Assembly: GCA_035939775.1 (NCBI GenBank)
Contig: DASZFO010000323.1
Span: forward strand, 1-32,153
From: Pirellulales bacterium
Lineage (GTDB): Bacteria; Planctomycetota; Planctomycetia; Pirellulales; DATAWG01
DNA: 32,153 nt
Reading direction: 5' to 3'
Numbering within the stretch: the stretch's first letter is position 1; every line of letters starts with the position of its first letter. The notes beneath the pieces were generated by a model. That model searched no databases, was not told the origin of the DNA, and was given only the letters and a program-made list of their open reading frames with translations. Made by a program: the position numbers and the translations under genes. Below are positions 26,729-31,366 of the stretch, piece by piece.

Positions 26729-26771
26729 TCGCGGCGTATCTTCGGGCGGGATTCTCTTCGTCCCACGGTTG

Positions 26772-27077
26772 ATGCGGCCGGACGGCAACGTCTTCGCAGA
26801 TCTCGGATTCCCGGACGCCGAGGAGTATATGGCGAAATCGAAAATTGCCGTGCAAATCTTCAAGATCATTAAGAACCGCCGATTGACTCAAGCCGCGGTG
26901 GGCAAGCTGCTTGGCATCACTCAGCCAAGTGTCTCTGCTTTCTTGAACGGCCGGCTTGATGGGTTTTCGACCGAGCGGCTGTTCCGCTTTCTCAATGCGC
27001 TGGGTTGCGACGTGCGAATTACCGTCTCGCGCCCGCATCCGAAGAGCCCCGGCCACGTTGAGGTGATGGCCGGTTAA
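26772..27077 (+). CDS. XRE-family antitoxin-like regulator (orphan)
   Basis: The product has 101 residues. A helix-turn-helix is clear (RRLTQAAVGKLLGITQPSVS, then AFLNGRLDGFSTERLFRFLN). The N-terminal NVFADLGFPDAEEYMAKSKI is typical of a family usually encoded right after a RelE/HigB-like toxin gene. Here the 44 bases upstream and the gene before them (the broken HAF gene) leave no room for a toxin, so it stands alone. It probably binds DNA. The TTG just before the ATG is less likely as the start. Confidence 0.88.
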   Translation: MRPDGNVFADLGFPDAEEYMAKSKIAVQIFKIIKNRRLTQAAVGKLLGITQPSVSAFLNGRLDGFSTERLFRFLNALGCDVRITVSRPHPKSPGHVEVMAG

Positions 27078-27403: not shown

Positions 27404-30400
27404 GTGCCCTACGAATCTTCCTTCGGCAATCTCCCGTCAGACGGGGCGAAGCGCGCGCCGGGCGGCCCGGAGACTCCATTTCGGATTGCGGTACTCGCTG
27501 ATTTCAGCGGCCGGCAGGGGCGCGAAGCGCCAGCAGCCGGCGACGAATTGCTTGCCCGCAAGCCGCTCAAAGTCGCGCACGAGTCGCTCGACGACGTGAT
27601 CGAGTCGGTGTCGCCGAAGCTGGAATACTCCGTAGCCGGCGGAGACGTTGCCGTTTTGTTGGAGTTTTCCGAGTTCGACGACTTTCAACCCGATCCGGTC
27701 GCGCGACAGGTCGATCGCGTCTCAGATTTGGACGACGAAGGCGCGACGGCCTTGATGCGCGGGATTATGCACCATCCCCAGTATCAGGCGCTCGAATCGA
27801 CTTGGCGCGGGCTGGAGTGGCTGCTGCGTCGAGTGCAAAAGAGCGATCGCATTCAGGTCATCCTATTCGATATTACGGCCGAGGAATTGGCCGCCGATCT
27901 GACGGCGAGCGACGATCTCAACGCGACGGCGATCCATCGACTCGTGGTCGAAAAGTCGGCCGAAGCGCCCGATGGTCAGCCGTGGGCCGTGATCGTCGGG
28001 AATTACGCGTTCGAGGAAACAACGGCCCACGCGGAGTTGCTCGGGCGAATGGCGAAGATCGCCGCTCGCTGCGGCGCCCCGTTCTTAGCTGCCGCAACTC
28101 CGATTGCGGTGCAAGAAGGTTACGAAGTGCCGGCGGATGGCAGGGAAGCGTGGAAGGCGCTCGGAGCGCTCTACGAAGCGGCATACGCCGGGCTGGCGGT
28201 TCCAGGCTTCTTGCTTCGCCCGCCGTTTGGGGAGAACTATCGGCCGGCCGAGTCGTTTCGCTTCGAGGAATTCTCCGGCGCTCCGGAAGGATATCTGTGG
28301 GGTAATCCGGCCTTCGCATGCGCCGGTTTGTTGGCGCTCGGCTACATGAAGTCCGGCTGGGGATTCGAGCCGGGGCAAACGCTCGCGCTCGACAACATCC
28401 CGATGCACTCGTATCGCGATTCGGACGGCGAGGCAGTCGCAGTTTGCGCCGAAGGGAAGTTCACTTCCTCGACCAGCCAAGAACTTGTGAAGCGGGGCCT
28501 GATGCCGCTCTTGGCCGTGCGCGGCCGCGACTCGATCGAGCTAGCTTGCATTCGGCCGCTTGCGCTTGAGATGAACGTGCTCAATGGGAGGTGGCAAGGT
28601 GGACAGGGAGGCCCTCCGCCGACGTCGGGTTTGCCGAAGGTCGGCGTCGGGATGATGTCGAAGGGGCAAACCTCCGGTCGCGCGGCGCCGAGTCGCGAGG
28701 GTCCCGCGTTTGTGTCGGCGTCGCCCGCTCCGCGCGCTCGGCAGGCCGATCCGGAGGTCGATCCGGAGCTGGCCGCGCTCTTGGCCGGCGACGAAGTGCC
28801 GAGCGACGACGGAGGTGGCGAATCAGCTTCGCCTGTCGAAGAATCACCAGACGAAGCGCCCCCGCCGGAAAATGGCAATGCCGATGCAGGCTTGGACCCC
28901 GAATTGGCCGCACTCCTGGGAGGCGATGCTGCTTCGCTCGAACAGCCACCAGCGGATGAGCCGATGCCGGAATTGGATCCCGAGTTGGCCGCCTTGCTCG
29001 GCGAGTCCGGCGGCGGTGAGACTCCACCGTCAGACACGGCCCCGACTGAAGAACTCGACCCGGAGCTTGCGGCGCTCCTAGGCGAAACGCCGGCAGCGCC
29101 CGCAACCGAGGAAACCGAACTTGATCCAGAGCTGGCTGCATTATTGGGAGATACACCGGCGGCAGAAGAAACGGACGAACACATGCCAGACCCGACAACG
29201 TCCGGCGACCAGCTCGATCCCGAATTGGCGGCCCTGTTAGGCGATCAACCCGCTGCTGAGCAAGAGTCCGCCGCCGAGGAACTTGATCCGGAACTGGCGG
29301 CGCTCTTGGGCGGATCGGCGGCGGGGAGCGATTCTCCGACTGCCGAGCCGGAGCCTGCGCCTGACAATGAACCCTCCCCGTATGACGAATCGCCTCCCGC
29401 CGACGAGCCGGCTGCCTCTCCTCCCTCAATCGACGAAACGGATTCTGAAATGGCCACTATCACCGACGATCGTCCCGACCTGGATCGTGAAGAGGATTCT
29501 TCCGCTCCGTCGGCAACAAGGAGTGCAAGCGCTATGGCGCAAGATCTCGACAGCCTGATCCAACAGGTGCAAGAAGTCTCGAAATACGGCGTGCCCGGCT
29601 CGGGCTCGCCGCCGGTGATCGACTTCAAATCGCTGCTCGCGCCAATCTCGGACGACGAGCCGGCCGGCGGCGGAGTGCCGTTCGACGTGCGCGAGCAGCT
29701 CGAACAGGCCCGCAAGGAGGTGAACCCCGACGCCTTCGCCCCGGACGATCCGATGCGTCCGGAGGATTTTGTCAAGGCCGATTGGAACGGCGTCATTGCC
29801 TTGACGCAGGAGACGCTCCGCGGCACGTCGAAGAACCTGCTCGTCGCCGCGCGGTTGCTCGAAGCGCTCACCAAGAAACACGGCTTCGCCGGGCTTCGCG
29901 ACGGCTTTCATCTTATGCGGCTGCTCGTCGATATCTGCTGGGACCGGCTCGATCCGCCGCTCGAGGACGAGGATATGGAAGTGCGGGCCGCCCCATTCAA
30001 TTGGCTCGACGATCCGGATCGTGCGGCCGTCTTCCCGCATTCGATCCGCGCCGTTCCGCTGCTTGCCGCCGACGGGAATCAATTCAGTTGGCAACAATGG
30101 CAGCAATCGCAAGGGGGCGGTGCGATGCAGGAGTTGGTCGATAAAGTCATCCTCGCCGCTCCCCGCGACCGCTGCCAGACAGCGGTCGATAACCTCTCTC
30201 AGGCCCAGCAGGAGCTGCGGTTCCTGATGCAGTCGCTCACGGAGAAGATGGGTGCCGAGGCGCCTGGCTTCACCTCCATCCGTCCCGCCGTGGTCGATTG
30301 CTTCAAACTGGCTCAGCAAATCCTGCAAAAAAAGGGACCGGCCCCAAGCGCCGGCGGAGCGGATGAAGCTGCCGAGACGGGCACGGTCAGCGACGGCGCC

Positions 30401-30661
30401 GGCGGCACGATGGTCGTCGTGGCCAAACCCCGCATGTCCACGCGCGAAGACATTTACCACGAACTCGCCACCGCCGCCGCCGCCCTGGAGCGGCTCGAGC
30501 CGCATAGCCCGGTGCCGTTCCTCGTCCGCCGAGCCGTCGAACTCGGAGCACTCCCCTTCCCGCTCCTGATGCAGGAACTAATCCGCGACGCCAACGTGCT
30601 CTCGGAAATGAACCGCGAACTGGGCATCAAGCAGCGGCAAGAGGTGAGCGAGATTGGTTGA
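27404..30661 (+). CDS. Type VI secretion sheath (TssB-TssC)-linker-TssA fusion protein
   Basis: The product has 1085 residues and a GTG start. Residues about 25-110 look like TssB (PFRIAVLADFSGR, then EFSEFDDFQPD). Residues about 115-397 match TssC: IMHHPQYQALESTWRGLEWL, FLAAATPI, LWGNPAFACAGLLALGYMKS and GLMPLLAVRGRDSIELACIR. This part is shorter than a normal TssC of about 490 residues and ends at VLNGRW. A Pro/Glu/Asp/Ala-rich linker (about 398-737) carries seven DPELAALL motifs. From about 738 a TssA/ImpA N-terminal domain begins (VIDFKSLLAPISDDEPAGG) and goes on with FHLMRLLVDICWDRLDPP to the end. TssB and TssC form the contractile sheath; TssA caps it during assembly. No TssE, F, G, K, L, M, Hcp or VgrG gene is visible nearby. 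Confidence 0.85.
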   Translation: MPYESSFGNLPSDGAKRAPGGPETPFRIAVLADFSGRQGREAPAAGDELLARKPLKVAHESLDDVIESVSPKLEYSVAGGDVAVLLEFSEFDDFQPDPVARQVDRVSDLDDEGATALMRGIMHHPQYQALESTWRGLEWLLRRVQKSDRIQVILFDITAEELAADLTASDDLNATAIHRLVVEKSAEAPDGQPWAVIVGNYAFEETTAHAELLGRMAKIAARCGAPFLAAATPIAVQEGYEVPADGREAWKALGALYEAAYAGLAVPGFLLRPPFGENYRPAESFRFEEFSGAPEGYLWGNPAFACAGLLALGYMKSGWGFEPGQTLALDNIPMHSYRDSDGEAVAVCAEGKFTSSTSQELVKRGLMPLLAVRGRDSIELACIRPLALEMNVLNGRWQGGQGGPPPTSGLPKVGVGMMSKGQTSGRAAPSREGPAFVSASPAPRARQADPEVDPELAALLAGDEVPSDDGGGESASPVEESPDEAPPPENGNADAGLDPELAALLGGDAASLEQPPADEPMPELDPELAALLGESGGGETPPSDTAPTEELDPELAALLGETPAAPATEETELDPELAALLGDTPAAEETDEHMPDPTTSGDQLDPELAALLGDQPAAEQESAAEELDPELAALLGGSAAGSDSPTAEPEPAPDNEPSPYDESPPADEPAASPPSIDETDSEMATITDDRPDLDREEDSSAPSATRSASAMAQDLDSLIQQVQEVSKYGVPGSGSPPVIDFKSLLAPISDDEPAGGGVPFDVREQLEQARKEVNPDAFAPDDPMRPEDFVKADWNGVIALTQETLRGTSKNLLVAARLLEALTKKHGFAGLRDGFHLMRLLVDICWDRLDPPLEDEDMEVRAAPFNWLDDPDRAAVFPHSIRAVPLLAADGNQFSWQQWQQSQGGGAMQELVDKVILAAPRDRCQTAVDNLSQAQQELRFLMQSLTEKMGAEAPGFTSIRPAVVDCFKLAQQILQKKGPAPSAGGADEAAETGTVSDGAGGTMVVVAKPRMSTREDIYHELATAAAALERLEPHSPVPFLVRRAVELGALPFPLLMQELIRDANVLSEMNRELGIKQRQEVSEIG
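28757..29311 (+). repeat. Seven-copy DPELAALL motif in the linker of the T6SS fusion protein
   Basis: Seven copies of a 10-residue unit close to LDPELAALLG begin at residues 452 to 627. They are separated by 15-40 residues of acidic, proline-rich sequence. The DNA of the copies differs at most third positions (for example CTCTTG, CTCCTG, TTGCTC and TTATTG all for Leu-Leu) while the peptide hardly changes. The unit would form a short amphipathic helix and may be a docking site repeated along a flexible tether. Confidence 0.85.
29518..29536 (+). promoter_or_regulatory. Possible internal translation start for TssA
   Basis: AAGGAG at 29518-29523 lies 10 bases before an in-frame ATG at 29534 (residue 711, MAQDLDSLIQQVQEVSKYG). 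Starting there gives a 375-residue protein holding just the TssA/ImpA domain, a normal size for TssA. Most genes in this window lack so clear a site, and the main start of this gene (GTG at 27404) has none. Confidence 0.45.
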
Positions 30662-30693: not shown

Positions 30694-30945
30694 ATGAGAA
30701 CGACCGTCCGACTTGACGACCAGCTTCTGAGTGCCGCCAAGAAAACTGCCGCCGAAACCGGGCGAACATTGACCACGGTTATCGAAGACGCTCTTCGCCA
30801 GTCTCTGGCGAAGAGCAAGACCGCGAACAAGCCCGCTCGCTTCAGGCTTCCTGTCCTCGATTTGGGCGAGACGATGCCCGGCGTCGATCTCGATAACTCG
30901 GCCGCCCTTCTGGATCTAATGGAAGCCGGCGATGGTCCTGTTTGA
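30694..30945 (+). CDS. vapB: VapB-type antitoxin (ribbon-helix-helix)
   Basis: The product has 83 residues. The N-terminal half is a ribbon-helix-helix DNA-binding domain (MRTTVRLDDQLLSAAKKTAA, then ETGRTLTTVIEDALRQSL). The C-terminal half (FRLPVLDLGETMPGVDLDNS) is the part that would cover the toxin's active site. It overlaps the vapC gene by 14 bp, the usual layout for the pair. It lies 32 bases after the T6SS fusion gene but has its own promoter. No ribosome binding site precedes the ATG, in line with a leaderless message. Confidence 0.9.
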   Translation: MRTTVRLDDQLLSAAKKTAAETGRTLTTVIEDALRQSLAKSKTANKPARFRLPVLDLGETMPGVDLDNSAALLDLMEAGDGPV

Positions 30946-31366
30946 CGTCAACGTATTGATCTACGCGACCCGCAAGCAGTCGGCCGACCATAAACGCTAC
31001 CACGCGTGGCTAGAACAGCTAGTCGATGGCGATGGGGCATTCGCCATCAGCGATCTCGTGCTCAGCGGCTATTTGCGGATCGTCACCAATCCCAAGGTCT
31101 TTGCCAAACCTGCCAGGCTTAGCGACGCCATCGAAGTTTGCGATCGAATCCGCGGACGGCCCAATTGCGTGGCGGTGCAGCCGGGTCCACGCCATTGGGA
31201 CATCTTCCTCGATCTTTGTCGCCGGGCGAGCGCTCGCGGGAATCTTGTTCCCGATGCCTTTCTGGCAGCGCTGGCCATCGAATCTGGCAGCGAGTGGCTC
31301 ACGACCGACCGCGACTACGCCCGCTTTCCCGGCCTCCGCTGGCGACACCCGCTCGCCGAGCGTTAG
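30932..31366 (+). CDS. vapC: VapC-type PIN-domain toxin
   Basis: The product is a 144-residue PIN-domain ribonuclease toxin. It opens with MVLFDVNVLIYATRKQSADH, with Asp5 as first metal ligand, has the VLSGYLRIVTNPKVF element typical of one VapC subfamily, and ends with VPDAFLAALAIE (Asp108) and TTDRDYARFPGL (Asp126, Asp128). The usual acidic residue in the second element is Gly here (LSGYL), which I recall as common in this subfamily. VapC toxins cut tRNA or rRNA when free of VapB. The ATG at 30932 lies within the end of vapB. Confidence 0.92.
   Translation: MVLFDVNVLIYATRKQSADHKRYHAWLEQLVDGDGAFAISDLVLSGYLRIVTNPKVFAKPARLSDAIEVCDRIRGRPNCVAVQPGPRHWDIFLDLCRRASARGNLVPDAFLAALAIESGSEWLTTDRDYARFPGLRWRHPLAER

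Follow-up and report, generated by a model that had tools for sequence, protein, structure and literature searches.

What does a type VI secretion system (T6SS) do with a single protein that resembles TssB, TssC and TssA at once? Such a protein is encoded in a 32,153-nucleotide stretch of DNA from Pirellulales bacterium (GenBank assembly GCA_035939775.1, contig DASZFO010000323.1), referred to here as the window. On its forward strand, a single intact frame of 1085 amino acids runs from a GTG start at position 27404 to a stop ending at 30661, with no internal stop anywhere in between. A preliminary description made from the DNA alone had proposed that tethering TssA to sheath subunits would equip every sheath unit with a cap domain, or else that the protein does another job. 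Our analysis indicates that the protein is almost certainly a TssA joined to a module of the type that we call TssBC-f, a grouping made in this study for proteins in which a TssB-like part is followed by the VipB N-terminal domain in one chain, without VipB_2, and which form a clade apart from TssC.

Make-up of the fusion protein

The three parts named in the preliminary description were all recovered in one frame above their Pfam cut-offs: T6SS_VipA with 46.8 bits (cut-off 24), VipB with 157.6 bits (cut-off 27) and ImpA_N (PF06812) with 83.9 bits (cut-off 26.9). The NCBIfam TssA equivalog, TIGR03363, spans residues 739-1074 and model positions 1-353 of 353, with 195.2 bits against a cut-off of 160.85. 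PDB sequence matches at this end of the protein are to the Nt1 domain (6hs5) and C-terminal domain (6h8f, residues 1014-1078) of TssA1-B, and EPHSP at residues 1032-1036 fits EP(H/Q)SP, the signature of the TssA1-B C-terminal ring domain (PMC6232143). These matches identify the C-terminal half as a complete TssA1-B-type TssA. It shares with Burkholderia cenocepacia TssA (6hs5, 6hs6, 6h8f; PMC6232143) a complete Nt1, the EPHSP ring domain and the whole-length TIGR03363 match, but the fusion has about 710 additional N-terminal residues. T4 gp6, proposed to be a TssF-TssA-like fusion (PMC4969574), offers a precedent for linking a TssA-like ring domain to a different tail component, although its partner is TssF-like and here the partner is sheath-like. 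In a full-length AlphaFold model, the N-terminal module and a disordered linker are clear, and the TssA half has a mean predicted local distance difference test score (pLDDT) of 56, a low confidence that reflects the few sequences covering it.

The N-terminal half fits the definition of TssBC-f. It falls below the cut-offs of both sheath equivalogs (TssB, TIGR03358, 44.5 vs 97.25 bits; TssC, TIGR03355, 153.8 vs 271.5 bits), and PDB sequence matches in the middle of the protein are TssC chains. VipB_2 (PF18945), the TssC C-terminal domain, is absent from the fusion by Pfam and present in the ordinary TssC of the same genome, bearing out the earlier remark that the TssC part ends early, near residue 397. 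In our alignment nothing in the fusion corresponds to the TssB N-terminal linker segment RPRVQITYDVET, and the C-terminal helices of TssB, like its N-terminal linker strand, lack a clear equivalent. The module was modeled by AlphaFold2 with 39 relatives (pLDDT 91; predicted template modeling score 0.92), and the model aligns with TssC1 (5n8n_B; model 104-400, chain 68-399) at Z 30 over 295 residues and 3.1 Å. Single-chain sheaths of phages and extracellular contractile injection systems align over about residues 21-400 at Z 13-17; several of these alignments stop short of the sheath C-terminal part, e.g., 20-290 of 383 residues for 9qgl_4A, which describes the range of the structural alignment only.

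In real sheaths, the inner domain has N- and C-terminal linkers that join the subunits (PMC5797969). Because the module lacks VipB_2 and the TssB N-terminal linker, the parts that make these joints, it should not interlock as a sheath subunit. Compared with the T6SS sheath proteins TssB/VipA and TssC/VipB (3j9g, 5n8n), the fusion has a predicted fold like the N-terminal two thirds of TssC and a TssB-like start, but it is a single chain, lacks both joining elements and belongs to a separate clade. The phage and extracellular contractile sheaths (gp18, pyocin, PVC) also hold TssB- and TssC-like parts in one chain, unlike T6SS sheaths, but the fusion belongs to a T6SS that has its own two-protein sheath. 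In quick trees, the canonical TssC proteins from these genomes group together (support 100) and every truncated single-chain TssB-TssC protein, the fusions among them, falls on the other side (support 100), which indicates that the module did not arise by decay of the local tssC.

The fusion among T6SS genes of Pirellulales

The window's genome (G000) is a draft of 384 contigs, 96% complete, with the fusion on contig C323. T6SS genes elsewhere in it had been anticipated, and tssE, tssF, tssG, tssK, tssL, tssM and hcp were all found on other contigs, together with tssB, tssC, clpV and tagJ. An ordinary cluster on contig C257 holds tssB (190 amino acids), tssC with VipB_2 (491 amino acids), three hcp, tagJ/impE, tssE, tssF and tssG; clpV is on contig C292 and tssK-tssL-tssM on contig C232. 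A third TssC-like gene, on contig C122 (L006:1511-3064), encodes a 517-amino-acid TssB-TssC fusion without TssA. The only ImpA_N match found in the genome is the one in the fusion. The hcp genes of the cluster (L005:8010-9958) are three tandem, diverged copies, and G006 and G001 also have three. At 633-644 amino acids, the TssM-like proteins of these T6SSs are short, and their only match is to IcmF-related_N (L063:4024-5925, L163:7391-9325), which suggests a reduced membrane complex.

The same domain order was searched for in relatives. Any match to the fusion protein was present in 57 of 197 genomes of the order, and five of the 197 carry the TssBC-like plus TssA frame: G000, G001, G015, G031 (JALHLM010000396.1, a Pirellulales metagenome-assembled genome [MAG]) and G006. 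These represent four genera in three families, G000 and G001 sharing a family and G015 and G031 a genus. The fusions of the other four genomes are 1116 (G001), 1161 (G015), 1225 (G031) and 1517 (G006) amino acids long, and the frame is open through both halves in each of them. In G006, a single contig, the genes lie on one strand as fusion-tssB-tssC-hcp-tagJ-tssE-tssF-tssG-clpV, followed by tssK, tssL and a short tssM; the fusion occupies the place of tssA, and a plain tssA stands in the same first position in G004. The fusion is also the only ImpA_N protein found in G006 and G001. G015 and G031 have a second, free ImpA_N protein (tssA), which in G015 shares its contig with a second T6SS. The alternative put forward in the preliminary description, that the protein does another job, may thus apply to the sheath half alone; the TssA half seems to serve its system as the functional TssA.

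The five fusions form one clade in the tree of TssA halves (support 97/96) and in quick trees of the TssBC halves (support 99). The ratio of nonsynonymous to synonymous substitution rates (dN/dS) between the window and G001 is 0.18-0.20 in all three parts of the gene, and between G015 and G031 it is 0.07 in the module, 0.19 in the linker and 0.04 in TssA. A single clade for both halves and low dN/dS in every part indicate that the fusion is old and maintained by purifying selection.

The linker between the two halves (residues ~400-737) is acidic, as first described, with 23% D+E against 3% K+R, and is predicted to be disordered. In the window it contains seven irregularly spaced copies of DPELAALL, a feature that the preliminary description had missed, as it had the possible internal start discussed below; 20,000 shuffles gave rise to 0 copies. 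The copies differ at 4.86 third positions per eight codons, compared with 4.82 expected for random synonymous encodings, with no amino acid change. Codons as divergent as random encodings, beneath unchanged amino acids, indicate that the motif is selected as a peptide and not as DNA. No DNA tandem repeat that might have given rise to the motif was found beneath the copies in the window linker. The G001 linker has nine copies, those of G015 and G031 have a mixture of DDDLAxLL and DLDAMLASLG forms, and that of G006 has an EVDxGLAxRMA repeat that is possibly related. Free TssBC-f proteins of G042, G051, G053 and G174, the sister clade of the fusions (support 95), terminate exactly in DPELAALLADL, so the motif tail probably predates the fusion, in which a motif-tailed TssBC-f would have been joined to tssA. 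The two motif forms are confined to these proteins (587,105 residues of loci checked). Another T6SS protein probably docks on this linker peptide. A likeness to the FliM peptide EIDALL was considered by eye and dropped for want of support.

Table 1. Features of the fusion gene (window coordinates) and example TssBC-f genes (locus coordinates)
Feature	Position	Strand	Evidence
Complete fusion gene: TssBC-like module, acidic repeat linker, TssA	27404..30661	+	Open reading frame; open in 4 other genomes
TssB/VipA-like part, residues 23-109	27470..27730	+	Pfam T6SS_VipA
TssC/VipB N-terminal part, residues 104-400 by structure, Pfam 113-378, without VipB_2	27713..28603	+	Pfam; predicted structure
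Acidic linker rich in proline and alanine, residues 401-737	28604..29614	+	Composition; predicted disordered
DPELAALL copy 1, residues 453-460	28760..28783	+	Motif search
DPELAALL copy 2, residues 498-505	28895..28918	+	Motif search
DPELAALL copy 3, residues 525-532	28976..28999	+	Motif search
DPELAALL copy 4, residues 552-559	29057..29080	+	Motif search
DPELAALL copy 5, residues 574-581	29123..29146	+	Motif search
DPELAALL copy 6, residues 605-612	29216..29239	+	Motif search
DPELAALL copy 7, residues 628-635	29285..29308	+	Motif search
AAGGAG, Shine-Dalgarno-like, 10 nt 5' of junction ATG	29518..29523	+	Sequence
Junction ATG (Met711), candidate internal start of a 375-amino-acid free TssA	29534..29536	+	Shine-Dalgarno score; Met in 5/5 fusions
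TssA Nt1 domain, ImpA_N region, residues 745-869	29636..30010	+	Pfam; match to TssA1-B Nt1 structure 6hs5
TssA C-terminal ring domain, residues 1014-1078, EPHSP at 1032-1036	30443..30637	+	Match to 6h8f/6hs6; signature per PMC6232143
TssBC-f examples	L084:7998-9572; L161:7872-9539		

The fusion gene is flanked by two toxin-antitoxin-like loci. Upstream on the same strand (26769-27077) lies a gene for a small helix-turn-helix protein, HigA/XRE-like by eye, and directly 3' of the fusion is a VapBC-like pair (30694-31366), in which a VapB-like antitoxin frame (30694-30945) overlaps that of a PIN-domain toxin (30932-31366; PF01850, E 1.8e-13). A sigma-54 promoter upstream of the fusion was considered by eye and, lacking support, dropped.

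TssBC-f beyond the fusion

Pattern-based scanning of GTDB genomes turned up 122 relatives, and 80 loci were retained (L083-L162); the spread of the fusion outside the order is judged from this one scan, which is blind to sequences like that of G006. One of the 80 loci is a fusion and the others encode TssB-TssC chains, mostly of about 510 amino acids, in Acidobacteriota, MAGs of Desulfobacterota/Deltaproteobacteria, Gammaproteobacteria, Planctomycetota (including Rhodopirellula sp. JC639) and a few other phyla. VipB_2 was absent from all four TssBC-f examples scanned with Pfam. In Desulfobacterota, the gene sits inside T6SS operons (tssE-F-G-clpV-..-TssBC-f-..-vgrG). In Acidobacteriota, it is often solitary, and in several of these genomes (L119-L124, L137, L142) it has a conserved place directly before gidA-parA-parB. 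Of 50 genomes checked that carry a TssBC-f gene, 49 nevertheless have TssF, the exception being a small 2.3 Mb assembly, compared with any match to the fusion protein in 57 of 197 genomes of the order and TssK in 11 of 20 relatives, which indicates that TssBC-f accompanies a T6SS even where its gene is an orphan.

Neither a TssB-TssC-TssA fusion nor a truncated TssB-TssC family was described in the literature searched (open-licence papers), and TssBC-f apparently has no family model of its own. It is plausible, if short of probable, that TssBC-f is an undescribed component of T6SSs, widespread in several phyla, that mimics the sheath and regulates the place or timing of sheath initiation, termination or capping, and that in Pirellulales it became fused to TssA and perhaps yields both the fusion and a free TssA from one gene.

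Where the sheath-like module may act

The single ImpA_N protein detected in G000, the tssA place of the fusion in G006 and a module without interlocking ends lead us to read the fusion as the TssA of its T6SS with a sheath-like front end. TssA1-B C-terminal domains build large rings with Nt1 domains at the periphery (PMC6232143), and TssA Nt1 docks on the sheath, with recruitment of TssBC proposed (PMC11106082). By analogy with known TssA1-B proteins, the C-terminal domains of the fusion would form a ring, which would hold many sheath-like modules on flexible tethers. As imperfect mimics, these might touch the end of the sheath or arriving TssBC subunits and so provide the TssA ring with additional weak, multivalent sheath contacts that could help to start or follow sheath growth, the modules themselves staying out of the lattice. 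An internal start may also give module-free TssA and, with it, mixed rings. We are evenly divided on this reading, a T6SS TssA bearing a polymerisation-incompetent sheath-like module on its N terminus through a long flexible linker and working in this way. Several observations weigh against it. The fusion gene of G000 stands apart from the other T6SS genes, and a draft in this state leaves room for a second tssA. A vgrG lies within 3.2 kb of TssBC-f in 14 of the 80 loci, and the G001 fusion is divergent to a vgrG, pointing to the spike or baseplate end and not to a distal cap. Many T6SS genomes of the order are without any TssBC-f, so the module is not essential to T6SSs in general.

Whether all ring subunits would carry a module may depend on the junction between linker and TssA. 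Met followed by A[SQ] is found there in all five fusions, in the window 34 residues before ImpA_N, and the first helix predicted by AlphaFold after the disordered linker begins at residue 712. The junction ATG of the window has the best Shine-Dalgarno-like match of 23 in-frame ATGs, and those of G001, G015 and G031 are best or tied best. The naive combined chance of this ranking in the four distinct genes is ~3e-5, for a Met chosen post hoc and in GA-rich sequence. Either this ATG still works as an internal start or it is a relic of the tssA start codon. It is possible, and we propose it only tentatively, that the gene has two products, the full fusion and a free 375-amino-acid TssA from Met711 (29534), which would put the module on some ring subunits and would suit either location. 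However, acidic coding sequence is itself rich in GA, the junction score of G006 is unremarkable (0.20), use of Shine-Dalgarno sequences in planctomycetes may be weak, and the Met may be no more than a fossil of the ancestral tssA start.

The vgrG neighbourhoods, often in the order clpV-..-TssBC-f-..-vgrG, raise the alternative that the module acts at the spike/baseplate end, where it would be an adaptor that connects VgrG (or the baseplate) to the first ring of the sheath, the fusion bringing it to TssA during baseplate priming. P. aeruginosa TssA1 binds VgrG1a, TssK1 and TssF1 (PMC4969574), consistent with such a site. We consider it rather unlikely: most TssBC-f genes are away from vgrG, the G006 fusion is in a tssA-tssB-tssC group with no adjoining vgrG seen, and vgrG neighbourhoods gather accessory and effector genes in general.

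A role in disassembly, in which the linker motif recruits ClpV or TagJ so that the unfoldase reaches the end of the sheath with the TssA ring, appears improbable. TssA1 has been found together with ClpV1 (PMC4969574), G000 has both tagJ and clpV, and ELAALL resembles the helix EFASLL of P. aeruginosa TssC1 (PMC4239648), a likeness that is only a lead. The TssC motif that binds ClpV, however, is LLDEII and not EFASLL, the genome's own TssC has LLDQVI, and the likeness amounts to a short hydrophobic pattern.

That the fusion is a true sheath subunit, as the first proposal, with its cap domain for every sheath unit, would require, is very improbable in spite of the sheath fold predicted for the module. 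Separate, full tssB and tssC genes in the genome, the missing interlocking parts and membership of a different, older paralogue family favor a TssA that carries a sheath-like module. An assembly artefact or a decaying gene fusion, which might be suspected of a gene lying away from the T6SS cluster of a draft genome, with a helix-turn-helix gene on one side and a VapBC-like pair on the other, is hardly credible given intact frames in five genomes of one clade, a conserved motif and dN/dS of 0.04-0.20.

How TssA holds and feeds the growing sheath is debated, as cap or at the baseplate, and a natural TssA with a sheath-like, apparently non-interlocking domain is a ready-made experiment on this question. 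Because profile searches do not separate TssBC-f from TssC, sheath gene counts for genomes that carry it are open to misreading. If TssBC-f is indeed a T6SS component in its own right, its fusion to TssA in Pirellulales would hint at its site of action.

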